Source: an uncultured Maribacter sp. (GTDB taxonomy: Bacteria; Bacteroidota; Bacteroidia; Flavobacteriales; Flavobacteriaceae). Taken from it: a stretch of DNA of 64,000 nt. Positions 58,916-63,991 of the stretch are shown here, piece after piece; position 1 is the first letter of the stretch, and each line of letters opens with the position of its first letter. Both the position numbers and the translations under genes were made by a program. The notes under the pieces are model-generated. The model worked only from the letters and a program-made list of their open reading frames with translations, was not told the origin of the DNA and did no database searches. Location of the stretch: contig CANMKG010000003.1 in the NCBI GenBank assembly GCA_947498505.1, forward strand, positions 434,001 through 498,000, written 5' to 3'.

Positions 58916-58955
58916 AGAAGCCTTAATCATTTTAAATGAAAAAATTAGGGCTTCT
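58916..58955 (+). promoter_or_regulatory. Hairpin enclosing the GH113-like start codon, terminator-like
   Basis: AGAAGCCTTAAT (58916-58927) pairs with ATTAGGGCTTCT (58944-58955), 12 bp with one T-G wobble, and a TTTTACTTTT run follows. The loop of 16 nt contains the ATG at 58936. It reads both as an intrinsic terminator for the upstream barrel gene and as a structure that could gate translation of the downstream gene. Confidence 0.6.
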
Positions 58956-59934
58956 TTTACTTTTATGTCAATTATCTTGTACGAGTCAGGCACCAGAAAA
59001 AATTAATGGAGTTAGTTTTGTTGCTGCCCCGGAAAAAGTTACACAAAAACAGGTAAATTATGTGTTAAACATTAATGCTAATCATGCAGCGGTAATGCCC
59101 TTTGGTTTTGTTAAAAATGTGAATTCTCCAGAAGTAATTTATAATACAGAACGACAGTGGTTTGGAGAAACTTTTGAGGGAGCAAAGCAATATATTCAAA
59201 TGTTGCATAAAAATAAGATTCAGGTAATGCTAAAACCTCAAATATGGGTTTGGAGGGGCGAGTTTACCGGAACAATAAAAATGAACTCTGAAAAGGATTG
59301 GAAAAAATTAGAAGATTCTTATGAAAATTTTATTCTTAGTTATGCCAAATTAGCAGAGGAAACTAAGGTGAATATATTCTGTATTGGAACAGAATTGGAA
59401 TTGTTTGTAAAAAACAGACCGAATTATTGGCAAAATTTAATTAAAAAAATACGTTATATATATAAAGGAAAGCTGACATATGCTGCCAATTGGGATGAGT
59501 ATACTAGAACTCCCTTTTGGAAACAACTAGATTACATTGGAGTAGATGCGTATTTTCCTTTATCGGATACTGAAACTCCAACGGTAGTGGAGTTAGAAGA
59601 CGCTTGGATGAAATGGAAGCCTAAATTAAAGCAGTTTTCTCAAACATATGATAAGCCTGTTTTATTTACTGAGTTTGGGTATCGAAGTATGAATTATACT
59701 GCGAAAAAACCATGGTTGGTAGATCGTAATGACGAAAAGGTTAATTTGCAAGCGCAGTCTAACGCGACGCAGGCCATTTTTAACTCATTTTGGAAAGAAG
59801 AATGGTTTAAAGGAGGATATATATGGAAGTGGTTTATTAATCATGATAAACGAGGAGGTATAAACGACAATAGATTTACACCTCAAAATAAACCAACGGA
59901 GCAGATAATTAAGGATTTTTATAGTCTAAATTAA
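58936..59934 (+). CDS. GH113-like glycoside hydrolase lipoprotein
   Basis: A 332-residue TIM-barrel protein with a lipoprotein signal (LLLLCQLSCTSQ, lipobox Cys near residue 15). The barrel has MLKPQIWVWRGEFTG near residue 110, the acid/base Glu in IFCIGTELELFVKNRP, the DYIGVDAYFPLSD strand and the nucleophile-type Glu in KPVLFTEFGYRSM. This matches GH113 (beta-mannanase-like) enzymes. It should act at the outer membrane surface. The next lipoprotein gene starts 1 nt after its stop. Confidence 0.82.
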   Translation: MKKLGLLLLLCQLSCTSQAPEKINGVSFVAAPEKVTQKQVNYVLNINANHAAVMPFGFVKNVNSPEVIYNTERQWFGETFEGAKQYIQMLHKNKIQVMLKPQIWVWRGEFTGTIKMNSEKDWKKLEDSYENFILSYAKLAEETKVNIFCIGTELELFVKNRPNYWQNLIKKIRYIYKGKLTYAANWDEYTRTPFWKQLDYIGVDAYFPLSDTETPTVVELEDAWMKWKPKLKQFSQTYDKPVLFTEFGYRSMNYTAKKPWLVDRNDEKVNLQAQSNATQAIFNSFWKEEWFKGGYIWKWFINHDKRGGINDNRFTPQNKPTEQIIKDFYSLN

Positions 59935-59935
59935 A

Positions 59936-60640
59936 ATGAAGAAGATATTTATATTGATTACTTGCTTTATTGTTGGATGTTCCACTGATAAAATTGAAAG
60001 TGAAACTTCATTAGCGGGAATTTTAGTGGATAATCAGTTTGAAGTGGATAATGTTATTGCATGCGCGGCCAATAATGAAAATTCAGAATTAATAAGTGTT
60101 TTTTTCTACCCTAGACCTGGAGCGAAAAATTTTCAGTGTTTTGAAACCTCTGGTGATGATAAAAATAATTTTAAAAATTATTCTAAAATAAACGCTACTC
60201 TATTTGATGTATTTAATGGGTTTTTAATGGGGTTTGAGGCTTCTTTTGATTCAGAAAAATGGGTGATTGTAACTTTTGAAGAAGCAGGGAAAGTGCATTT
60301 GTCCAATCCAATAAGGTTGAAACATCTTAGCAAGCCAACAGAATATTTAGCAGATAATAGTACTATTAACGCTCCAATGTTTTCATGGCAAGATGGTAAT
60401 TACTTAGATACCGCTATCTATTTTCAAGTAATTTCAGATAAACAAAACAATCTCCTTTCCGGAACCTATACCTATGATAAATTCTTTACATTTTATGAAC
60501 TTGATAATGTCGTTTTAAACATTACTCAAAAAACTCCAGCAAATTTAATTAAAGGAGGCTCTTATAATTATACTTTAATGGCAGTGAGTGAAGATAATTG
60601 GGTAAATATGATTTCAGCAAAACCATTTATGGTAGACTAA
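59936..60640 (+). CDS. Lipoprotein of unknown function
   Basis: A 234-residue lipoprotein (lipobox FIVGC near residue 15). I do not recognise the family. The sequence is beta-rich with many aromatic residues, for example VITFEEAGKVHLSNPIRL-type strands (FEEAGKVHLSNPIRLKHL) and SWQDGNYLDTAIYFQVISDK. A carbohydrate-binding or adhesive role is possible. Its start is 1 nt after the GH113-like stop, so the two are translationally coupled. Confidence 0.65.
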   Translation: MKKIFILITCFIVGCSTDKIESETSLAGILVDNQFEVDNVIACAANNENSELISVFFYPRPGAKNFQCFETSGDDKNNFKNYSKINATLFDVFNGFLMGFEASFDSEKWVIVTFEEAGKVHLSNPIRLKHLSKPTEYLADNSTINAPMFSWQDGNYLDTAIYFQVISDKQNNLLSGTYTYDKFFTFYELDNVVLNITQKTPANLIKGGSYNYTLMAVSEDNWVNMISAKPFMVD

Positions 60641-60711: not shown

Positions 60712-61974
60712 ATGGTAAGGGTTTACCTATCTTTTTTCTTTTTTTTAGCAGTTGCTGCAGGTTTTTCTCAGCAGCAAATTATTGCTGATATTCAAATCAA
60801 AGGGGCTAAAAAATTAAAAAAATCTTTTGTTGCTAGACTTATTAATGTCGAAAAAGAAACTATACTAGATTCCTTGGTATTGAATGAAGATATTAATCGT
60901 TTAAAACGATTACCTTCTGTTGCTCATGCATATTATAACGTAAAAGCTTTAGAAGGGGATAATGTAAATGTTATTTACGTTATCGAGGAGAATTTCACGA
61001 TAATTCCCTTTGCCAGTTTGTATACTTCATCAAATGATGCTTTTGCTTTTAGAGTTGGATTGCAAGAGTTTAATTTTTTAGGAAGAAATATGACACTTGG
61101 TGGCTTCTATCAATATGACGTGTTCAATTCTTATGGGATTAATTTTCGAGCTCCTAATTTGTTTTCTCGAAAATTAGGCTTGGCGGTTGAGTATAAAGAT
61201 TTAACAACGCAAGAACCTGTCTTTTTTGCAAATTCCGAAGCCGATTACAGGTATAATAATAAAGGTATTGAAGTTTTGGGTTTATATGAGTTTAATTTTA
61301 AAAACCGTATAGAACTTGGTTTTAGTTTTTTTGAAGAGGATTATAAGTATTTATCCGGCATAACCAGTCCAGATGTACCTCAACAATTAAATGTACAAAA
61401 GCATTTATTAAAACTCATATATAATTATGATAATGTACGTTATTTTTATCAATATTTAGAAGGCTTTAGAAGTACTTTAAACTTTCAATATGTGGGAAGT
61501 GCGAATAAAAATCTATCCAATTTTTTAATAGGATTTAATGATTTTTTATACTTCCATAGAATTGGTAAAAAAGGGAATTGGGCAAATCGGGTTCGCTTAG
61601 GTTTAGCGAGTAATCAAGTAACACCTTTTGCGCCTTTTACCGTTGATAATAATTTAAATATTCGAGGCGTAGGTAATACTATAGATAGAGGTTCTGGAGC
61701 TATTGTTTTTAATACGGAGTACAGACATACAATAGTAGATAAAGACTGGTTTGTGTTACAGGGAAATGTATTTGTAGACGGCGGTACATGGCGTAACCCA
61801 GGAGGGGATTTTAGCGATTTTACAAATAGCGATAATATTAGAATTTTTCCTGGGATAGGACTGCGCTTTATACATAAACGAATTTTCAATGCAATATTCA
61901 GAATAGATTATGGTCACGGAGTAACAAATGACAAGTCTAGAGGATTAGTTTTTGGAATTGGACAGTATTTTTGA
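60712..61974 (+). CDS. Omp85-family outer-membrane protein with one POTRA domain
   Basis: 420 residues with a signal peptide (cut near GFSQQ). A single POTRA domain (about 25-95; IIADIQIKGAKKLKKSFVAR, INRLKRLPSVAHAYYNVKAL) precedes a barrel of about 320 residues. The barrel carries the Omp85 motif NLNIRGVGNTIDRGSGAIVF and ends in an outer-membrane-type terminal Phe (FGIGQYF). BamA has five POTRA domains, so this is a small specialised member, possibly a translocator or lipid-handling protein. The amidase-like gene follows at once. Confidence 0.85.
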   Translation: MVRVYLSFFFFLAVAAGFSQQQIIADIQIKGAKKLKKSFVARLINVEKETILDSLVLNEDINRLKRLPSVAHAYYNVKALEGDNVNVIYVIEENFTIIPFASLYTSSNDAFAFRVGLQEFNFLGRNMTLGGFYQYDVFNSYGINFRAPNLFSRKLGLAVEYKDLTTQEPVFFANSEADYRYNNKGIEVLGLYEFNFKNRIELGFSFFEEDYKYLSGITSPDVPQQLNVQKHLLKLIYNYDNVRYFYQYLEGFRSTLNFQYVGSANKNLSNFLIGFNDFLYFHRIGKKGNWANRVRLGLASNQVTPFAPFTVDNNLNIRGVGNTIDRGSGAIVFNTEYRHTIVDKDWFVLQGNVFVDGGTWRNPGGDFSDFTNSDNIRIFPGIGLRFIHKRIFNAIFRIDYGHGVTNDKSRGLVFGIGQYF

Positions 61975-61999: not shown

Positions 62000-62899
62000 G
62001 TGACTTTAAAAATCTATCTCTCTTCTATTATTGTTAGTTTATTGTTCGTTGTAAACGTGCAATCTCAAAAAAAAGTTACCGCAAAAAAAGGAGATGGAAT
62101 ATATTCTTTGCTGAGAAGAGAAGGTATTAATCCTGTTAAGTATTATGTTGATTTTGTTGAGCTTAACAAGGAAAGTTTAGTGTCTGGAAGCAACTTAAAA
62201 GAAGGAGTCGCTTATATTCTTCCGGAAGCAAAAGATTCTTTTAAAAGTTTAGGAGTAGAAATACAATTTCCTGAAGCAACTGAAAAACCCATTTTTGATG
62301 AGGTAGCTAAGTTTGTTGCTAAAGACAGTACCCTTAAAAATACAGTATACTATTTAATTTCAAATAATATATTAAGCCCTTATATAAAAACCTTAACAAA
62401 ACGTCTAATATTAAAGGGTGCTAAAGTATATACGCTTTACCAAAACGCAGATAATACTTTAGAAAATTCTGAAAAGGAAAATTTAGGCACGTATGTTGAT
62501 GTTATTAATAAAAAATACTTAATGCATAGAGGACGGTACCAACGTGTGTTAGTAATTAATGGTAATAGTAGTCTTGCCAAATCAAACCCTCAAGTAACCA
62601 TTCATCATCATGAAGGGAGTGAAGATGGGGAAAAATTGGCAGAGAGTATTCAAAAATCAATAAAGGCAACAAGCGTTACACAAAGACAATTGAAAAATAG
62701 TAAAGTTTTGGCAGATGGAGATAAACAATATTTTGCTAAAAATATTTTACCAACTGTTACTTTTGTTGAAATAGGAAAAACTCCAGGCAATTCTGAAAAC
62801 ACAATTAAGTCTCGGGTTAATAAAAAGAATTTCACTTCGTTAATTACTAAAGCTATTTTAACCGATTATTCTAATGCAAATTTTGAGGATGAAGATTAA
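62000..62899 (+). CDS. Catalytically degenerate amidase-like protein, secreted
   Basis: About 300 residues from GTG at 62000, which gives a signal peptide (TLKIYLSSIIVSLLFVVNVQ); a TTG at 61952 would add 16 residues overlapping the Omp85-like gene. The N-terminal part shares KGDGIYSLLRREGINPVKYY and the following segment with the next gene. The second half aligns with its amidase domain, but the Zn-ligand GHGG has become ISNNILSP and the THVD His has become INGNSSL. Only the FVEIGKTPGN stretch remains. It is predicted to bind peptidoglycan or regulate the active paralog rather than cut. Confidence 0.75.
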   Translation: MTLKIYLSSIIVSLLFVVNVQSQKKVTAKKGDGIYSLLRREGINPVKYYVDFVELNKESLVSGSNLKEGVAYILPEAKDSFKSLGVEIQFPEATEKPIFDEVAKFVAKDSTLKNTVYYLISNNILSPYIKTLTKRLILKGAKVYTLYQNADNTLENSEKENLGTYVDVINKKYLMHRGRYQRVLVINGNSSLAKSNPQVTIHHHEGSEDGEKLAESIQKSIKATSVTQRQLKNSKVLADGDKQYFAKNILPTVTFVEIGKTPGNSENTIKSRVNKKNFTSLITKAILTDYSNANFEDED

Positions 62900-62950
62900 A
62901 ATTTAAATCTTTGCCCATATTATTAAATAACGGTTGATAATACTTTTAAG

Positions 62951-63991
62951 GTGAATAAACTTTTTTATACTTTTTTTTTAGTTTTTATAAGCATTTCACA
63001 ATTTAGTTGGAGCCAAGACTCTCTGGTTAGTGTAATGGCAGAACAAGGGGATGGAATATACTCTTTGTTAAGAAAACAAGGGCTAAATCCATACACCCAT
63101 TTTGATGATTTTGTAAAACTTAATATCACTAACATTAGAGATAGTGTTCATATTTATGAGGGTCGTTCATATAAGATACCTGTTAAAATAAATGATGTTG
63201 AAGAGCAAACCTCTTCAACAACTGCCGCCACCAACATTGTTAAACCAAAAATAAAAGGCAAAAAGTTTCCAATTTTTGGAAAAAAACATGAAACAGTATC
63301 TCCTAAAAGCAATCGATTAAAGGGTACAGTTTTCTATGTGGTTTCTGGACATGGAGGACCAGATCCTGGTGCAATGACAAATTACAAATCTAAACCCATT
63401 TGTGAAGACGAATATGCATACGATATTTCGTTGCGATTAGCAAAGGAGTTGTTATCTCATGGTGCTATGGTTTACATAATAATCAGAGATGAAAATGATG
63501 GAATTAGAGATGAACGAATTCTAAAAATTGACCATGATGAAGTTGCCTATCAAGATGAAATTATTCCTTTAAATCAAGTAAAAAGATTAAAACAGCGTGC
63601 AAACATTGTAAATAAGTTGTATAAAAAACACAGAGGAAAACACCAACGTTTAATAGTTACTCATGTAGATAGCAGAAGTAAGGGGCAAAATATTGATGCC
63701 TTTTTCTATCATCATGAAAAAAGTAAAAGTGGAAAAAAATTAGCGGAAAACATTCATGCTACATTTCAAAAAAAATATAAAAAATACCAGCCCAATAGAG
63801 TTTATGACGGAACTTTTTCGGATAGAACTGGGCTATATATGGTTAAGAATACGCTACCTGCTACCGTATATATAGAAATTGGGAATATTAGAAATAAAAA
63901 AGATCAGCGTCGAATTTTAGAGTATGATAACCGACAAGCTCTTGCCAAATGGATTAGCGAAGGCGCTATCTTGGACTATGAGAGCAAATAG
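62951..63991 (+). CDS. N-acetylmuramoyl-L-alanine amidase (Amidase_3), secreted
   Basis: 346 residues from a GTG start with a signal peptide (cut near FSWSQ-D). An N-terminal module (EQGDGIYSLLRKQGLNPYTH, about 30-80) matches the preceding gene and may be a LysM-like binding unit. The Amidase_3 domain (about 125-343) has the zinc set His134 (VSGHGGPDPGAMTN), Glu154 and His238 (VTHVD), and the catalytic Glu309 in TVYIEIGNIRN. It should cut the amide bond between N-acetylmuramic acid and the peptide stem. Both this gene and its degenerate neighbour use GTG starts. Confidence 0.88.
   Translation: MNKLFYTFFLVFISISQFSWSQDSLVSVMAEQGDGIYSLLRKQGLNPYTHFDDFVKLNITNIRDSVHIYEGRSYKIPVKINDVEEQTSSTTAATNIVKPKIKGKKFPIFGKKHETVSPKSNRLKGTVFYVVSGHGGPDPGAMTNYKSKPICEDEYAYDISLRLAKELLSHGAMVYIIIRDENDGIRDERILKIDHDEVAYQDEIIPLNQVKRLKQRANIVNKLYKKHRGKHQRLIVTHVDSRSKGQNIDAFFYHHEKSKSGKKLAENIHATFQKKYKKYQPNRVYDGTFSDRTGLYMVKNTLPATVYIEIGNIRNKKDQRRILEYDNRQALAKWISEGAILDYESK

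Follow-up and report, generated by a model that had tools for sequence, protein, structure and literature searches.

Predicted catalytic death and conservation of an Amidase_3 paralogue encoded mostly beside its active-type counterpart in Flavobacteriaceae

Two amidase-like genes lie in tandem in the stretch of DNA analyzed here (the window, 64,000 nucleotides from the 4.08-Mb genome of a Maribacter sp., a genus of Flavobacteriaceae), the first of them apparently stripped of the residues that mark the second as an enzyme. What such a protein is kept for, and whether it serves its neighbor, is the question that this locus raises. A previous reading made from the sequence alone had proposed that the first protein may regulate or target the second at the envelope, in connection with a small Omp85 protein encoded upstream. 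The pseudo-amidase gene (the dead copy) occupies positions 62000..62899 (+) and encodes 299 amino acids from a GTG codon, comprising a signal-like N-terminus (read by eye), a LysM-like module, and an Amidase_3-type domain without an active site. The active-type amidase gene (the active copy) occupies 62951..63991 (+) and encodes an Amidase_3 protein of 346 amino acids, also from GTG; both start codons, at 62000 and 62951, were as previously read. Upstream of 62000, the frame of the dead copy is also open back to a TTG at 61952. The GTG at 62000 follows the stop codon of the Omp85 gene after 25 nt, and a GTG was found at an equal distance in the genomes of two other species, G002 and G054.

The description of the second protein as carrying the full His/Glu/His/Glu set of an amidase was borne out. 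The protein matched Amidase_3 (PF01520) with an E value of 4.6e-19 and 69.6 bits, compared with a cut-off of 27, over residues 125-345 (63323..63985, +), and contains H134 (codon 63350-63352, +), E152 (63404-63406), H238 (63662-63664), D240, and E309 (63875-63877). In a profile search of the PDB, the active family matched the germination amidase 7rag and LytH 7tj4, and H134, E152, H238, and E309 aligned with the His, Glu, His, and Glu of 7rag. H238 and D240 correspond by spacing to His133 and Asp135 of the AmiA site (PMC10268282).

The two window proteins showed 27% identity over 316 columns, with a BLASTP E value of 7e-30, and their relation is thus not due to chance. No Amidase_3 match was reported by Pfam for the window dead copy; of the 11 dead-copy members scanned, 4 matched PF01520 at E<=1 (best E value, 4.4e-6), and the profile search of the PDB with the dead family yielded only two matches, both at chance level (E values of 0.22 and 0.5). 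An Amidase_3 ancestry of the dead copy is supported by its identity to the active copy, by the PF01520 matches of its members, and by its nested position in the tree (see below). Its degenerate domain (residues 113-299; 62336..62896, +) retains YQR, H254, and the last Glu, and lacks the equivalents of H134, E152, H238, and D240 together with the DGIR...DxDE segment. The proposed loss of the first His and of the THVD His was confirmed, with Asn occupying the H134 and H238 slots; there is a gap at the E152 slot, and a Glu remains only at position 309. The losses of the first Glu and of the DGIR...DxDE segment go beyond those noticed previously. Judged by these residues, the first copy is catalytically dead. 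AlphaFold2 models (four sequences) had a mean pLDDT of 43.0 for the dead copy and 58.8 for the active one and were too poor for use.

The active-site residues were then surveyed over the family. Sixteen intact dead copies were aligned, 15 from a sample of 397 Flavobacteriaceae genomes plus that of G002/L027, which is outside the sample. H238 was kept in none of them, H134 and D240 in one each, E152 in two, and E309 in six, and each copy retained at most two of the main four; gaps occupied the positions of D194, D196, and E197 in 12 of the 16. For their part, all 82 full-length active copies (77 from the 81 genomes with an active copy and 5 from congeners outside the 397), including that of the window, conserved all five residues. 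Four genomes (G059, G073, G228, and G352) rendered only pieces of the active gene, and the residues covered by these pieces were all kept. That of G228 (L168) is a 228-aa frame short of H134 inside a long contig, possibly a truncated gene. The counts omit a truncated duplicate of the G197 copy and a 61-aa fragment in G151; the latter (L077, 9621-9806) resembles the C-terminus of the active amidase and lies approximately 2.3 kb downstream of an intact copy.

Alternative metal ligands, the presence of which would have spoken against a dead site, were looked for across the 16 aligned dead copies, and none was seen. The sole invariant His, Asp, Glu, or Cys residues were D34, located in the LysM-like module, H254, and D342, while D88, E105, and E112 of the linker were kept in 14 of the 16. 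Y231, Q232, R233, and H254 were invariant among the dead copies; Q232 and R233 were also kept in 56 of 56 active copies and H254 in 52 of 56.

To establish the distribution of both genes, the 397 genomes were searched with a profile of 11 dead copies. Matches were obtained in 85 genomes, from which G288 (E value, 4.3e-4) was dropped. Since score alone fails to separate the two kinds (the active copies of G124, G125, G130, G324, and G328 reached 299 to 310 bits with the dead profile, and the dead copy of G390 reached 276), copies were assigned as dead or active by their residues and position. A dead copy was found in 16 genomes (intact in 15 and split in G172), an active copy in 81, and both in 13. 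The split copy of G172 (L075, 6986-7971) consists of two overlapping frames, due to a frameshift or a sequencing error, and was counted for presence and left out of the alignment. Six of the eight genomes of the window's genus contained the active copy only. Outside Flavobacteriaceae, 294 genomes of the same class were searched with the active profile: 23 contained an active-type match, and no dead copy was recognized in any. This profile, which was not built for dead copies, did detect that of the window.

In a phylogenetic tree, which also comprised 19 relatives of other families in the class, a single clade (support of 1.0) on a long stem (0.92) united the dead copies inside the active copies of Flavobacteriaceae, and both the single dead clade and its nesting were recovered in 30 of 30 column bootstraps. 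The active copy of G361 was left out of this tree and is also absent from the comparison of domain identities given below. As judged from this topology, the active site is shown to have been lost once, before the known dead-copy members diverged. The exact sister of the dead clade is less sure than its monophyly and nesting: the active copies standing beside it in the 30 bootstraps were those of G124 (22), G125 (17), G324 (17), G130 (13), and G328 (12). The genomes G142 (L072), with a dead copy only, and G124 (L141), with an active copy only, were sisters in the trees of the neighboring GH113 (0.92) and Omp85 (0.99) proteins; this pattern, along with the position of the G124 active copy near the dead clade, could reflect paralogue sorting, transfer, or a tree artifact.

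Selection was estimated from one species pair, the window genome and L027, with dS values of about 0.5 to 1.0. By the NG86 method, the dead copy had a dN/dS of 0.115 and the active copy one of 0.065, with 0.048 for the Omp85 gene and 0.064 for the GH113 gene; by YN00, the values were 0.055 for the dead copy and 0.035 for the active one. These values show that, in the pair measured, the dead copy is kept under purifying selection. Within the dead copy, dN/dS was 0.098 for the LysM-like part and 0.107 for the amidase part, so both halves are under similar constraint at this short distance. That the gene might be a recent pseudogene was ruled out by its single old origin, its intact frames, and its dN/dS.

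The conserved N-terminal part, the GDGIYSLLR module, extends over residues 24-78 of the dead copy (GDGIYSLLRREG...; 62069..62233, +) and residues 25-78 of the active copy (63023..63184, +), and is supported in the former by profile-profile matching to LysM and by conservation. Aligned by hhalign with nine LysM domains of the window genome, the module rendered probabilities of 63% for the active set, 83% for the dead set, 94% for the outside set, and 90% for all sets (score of 29.9), compared with 4% or less for 20 column shuffles (scores of 14.3 or less) and 0.4% for a reversed alignment. The module is thus well supported as a divergent LysM. This assignment is not certain, because Pfam reported no LysM (PF01476) at E<=1 in any of the 25 members scanned. 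Its mean identity among 12 genomes with both copies (66 pairs) was similar in dead and active proteins (0.527 versus 0.516), whereas that of the amidase domain was 0.354 among dead copies versus 0.744 among active ones. Accordingly, the presumed wall-binding part has held its old level of conservation family-wide and the amidase part has not.

The tandem order of the two genes also proved frequent. Of the 14 genomes with both genes, counting G002, 12 have the dead copy immediately before the active one; the two others are G361, which is rearranged, with the genes some 4 kb apart, and G172, whose active copy is elsewhere in the genome. The distances between them, which depend on uncertain start codons, were -4 nt in G222 and G389, 0 in G054 and G404, 51 in the window, and 490 in G197, and two further tandem genomes showed a longer overlap when the start of the longest frame was taken. 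A joint role is reasonable, given that the dead copy is preserved and lies mostly directly upstream of the active copy, with some overlapping. An active copy was present in 13 of the 16 genomes with a dead copy versus 68 of the 381 others (odds ratio of 19.9; Fisher p of 1.5e-7, kinship ignored).

The pairing is nevertheless one-sided. Whole-genome searches of G108, G142, and G185 (99% complete) found the dead copy without an active one, which rules out a strict regulator-target pair, and 68 of the 81 genomes with an active copy had no dead copy. Those three genomes each encode one further Amidase_3 protein or two, among them always one of 408-455 aa, similar to that of 439-457 aa in the four other genomes searched, so a different amidase could act as the partner. 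Thus, from the proposal that the dead copy regulates or targets the active one, the dead site, the preservation, and the tandem order stood, but the active copy is missing from 3 of the 16 dead-copy genomes. The sequence-only reading had itself named failure of the pair to co-occur in relatives as an argument against it, and the absence of the dead copy from most active-copy genomes and from six of the eight congeners goes far towards that outcome.

The NlpD activator is a degenerate LytM protein, and the animal peptidoglycan recognition proteins (PGRPs) have an Amidase_2-type fold. In contrast to EnvC, NlpD, and DipM, which have the M23/LytM fold, the dead protein and the amidase are here paralogues of each other, and Pfam scans (E<=1) of 11 dead-copy members detected no M23/LytM domain. 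EnvC (PMC10268282, PMC4946905) and DipM (PMC10336132) are degenerate LytM proteins, dead relatives of hydrolases, that control amidases. Control of Amidase_3 enzymes by a partner has precedents in EnvC-AmiA/AmiB (PMC10268282) and in the GerS-CwlD and ActH-LytH pairs, where the enzyme needs its partner (PMC8496864); neither the lipoprotein GerS nor the transmembrane protein ActH is called an amidase relative in the available passages of that paper (PMC8496864). Noncatalytic PGRPs are amidase-type proteins that bind peptidoglycan (PMC8124813), but they belong to animal immunity and are not encoded in an operon with an active copy beside them.

The nearest known system, as likened by description, is the mycobacterial CwlM, which, like the dead copy, derives from Amidase_3 and has lost zinc ligands; its peptidoglycan-binding domains and nonenzymatic role (PMC4946905) would have counterparts in the LysM-like module and the presumed role of the dead copy. 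Degeneration of the zinc ligands of an Amidase_3 domain, a feature of this type of regulator, was found in the dead copies; other features of the type are the lack of a secretion signal and a phosphorylation motif behind the amidase domain. CwlM is cytoplasmic, is a kinase substrate, and stimulates MurA (PMC4946905), whereas the dead copy looks secreted (by eye), has a single LysM-like module, stands mostly in tandem with an active paralogue, and comes from Bacteroidota. Among the literature matches listed, all open-licence papers, CwlM alone fitted a described dead Amidase_3 paralogue; little was found on amidase control in Bacteroidota, a name absent from all papers listed in the search for it. 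Such a pseudo-enzyme, of the known kind derived from a wall hydrolase, would, if confirmed, constitute the second case, after CwlM, in the literature searched of an Amidase_3 turned nonenzyme. Together, the live amidase and its conserved dead paralogue offer a compact, testable two-gene system, with the genomes that carry both, the live copy only, or the dead copy only as a ready-made natural experiment.

The preservation of the protein despite its dead site suggests that its task is now to bind the wall or to steer the enzymes that cut it, rather than to cut. The best reading, to which we give an even chance, is that the pseudo-amidase is secreted, binds the wall, and modulates amidases. The sequences show that an active Amidase_3 gene with a LysM-like module was duplicated within Flavobacteriaceae and that one duplicate had lost zinc binding and catalysis before the known members diverged. 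Secreted to the periplasm, as the signal-like N-termini read by eye suggest, the dead copy may bind peptidoglycan as a noncatalytic partner or placeholder and activate, position, or restrain the action of an amidase on the wall, in the first place the tandem enzyme where present and a general wall amidase elsewhere. Cleavage of the N-acetylmuramoyl-L-alanine bond by the usual zinc-dependent mechanism is presumably the task of the active copy. Omp85 may take a direct part as well, which this reading does not require. A more specific version, which we hold at somewhat below even, is that of a periplasmic, peptidoglycan-binding cofactor born by killing the site of an amidase paralogue, which would place a hydrolase under its own dead twin and make this twin a bacterial counterpart of the noncatalytic animal PGRPs, able to work also without the live one.

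Alternatively, the pseudo-amidase could bind peptidoglycan through its LysM-like module and dock on the Omp85 protein, anchoring or guiding it as a tether between outer membrane and peptidoglycan, with amidase regulation being secondary. The Omp85 gene is directly upstream in the three genomes with a dead and no active copy, and it is the presumed wall-binding module that has retained its former degree of conservation. However, an Omp85 gene at E<=1e-20 was found in 156 of the 397 genomes and in only 11 of the 16 with a dead copy, in one of them (G389) off the locus; it is missing from the other 5, which rules it out as an obligate partner, and 145 of the 156 Omp85-positive genomes lack a dead copy. 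The association of the Omp85 gene with the dead copy had an odds ratio of 3.6 (p of 0.018) and that with the active copy one of 6.1 (p of 8e-12), kinship being ignored in both. The link to the small Omp85 protein proposed from the sequence alone is thus weak, and we consider this tethering unlikely. Slightly less probable still is that the dead copy, in the manner of the noncatalytic animal PGRPs, occupies peptidoglycan or its turnover fragments and signals or shields sites without touching an amidase: the LysM-like module is kept, catalysis is lost, and the protein occurs alone in 3 of 16 genomes, but Pfam detected no signaling domain in it, its gene is in tandem and partly overlapping with that of the amidase in most genomes with both, and its amidase domain is poorly conserved (35% identity).

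The example of CwlM, a degenerate Amidase_3 protein with an essential role in activating MurA (PMC4946905), raises the further option that the enzyme regulated by the pseudo-amidase is another one of the wall, active in synthesis and not in hydrolysis. Given that CwlM homologues have no secretion signal (PMC4946905) and the dead copies have a signal-like N-terminus (by eye), we regard such a diversion as improbable. As for a dying duplicate without function, its absence from most relatives and the split copy of G172 would fit, but 15 of the 16 copies from the 397 genomes have intact frames, their origin is single and old, dN/dS is about 0.1 in the one pair, and YQR, H254, and residues of the LysM-like module are invariant; purifying selection makes this explanation scarcely credible.

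Regarding the neighbors of the pseudo-amidase and its amidase, the Omp85/BamA-like outer-membrane protein (60712..61974, +; 420 aa) contains a single POTRA, as had been read (PF07244, residues 23-93; 22.3 bits, cut-off of 21.3). It matched TIGR03303 (NCBIfam) over residues 23-387 with an E value of 9.8e-11 and 40.7 bits, far under the equivalog cut-off of 297, and therefore is not BamA itself. It fits the description of a BamA-like subfamily with 1-3 POTRA domains (PMC4104836), for which the available passages of that paper mention no linkage to amidases. Upstream of it, a 234-aa protein (59936..60640, +) without Pfam matches above the cut-off lies between the GH113 and Omp85 genes at some loci only. 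The GH113-like glycosidase gene (58936..59934, +) was the only neighbor present at every mapped dead-copy locus (17 of 17, with G002 and the split copy of G172 counted); a GH113 gene was found in 264 of the 397 genomes and in all 16 with a dead copy. As a guess, this protein may act on the wall and not on mannan. It also matched the GTA TIM-barrel family PF13547 (E value, 2.3e-9).
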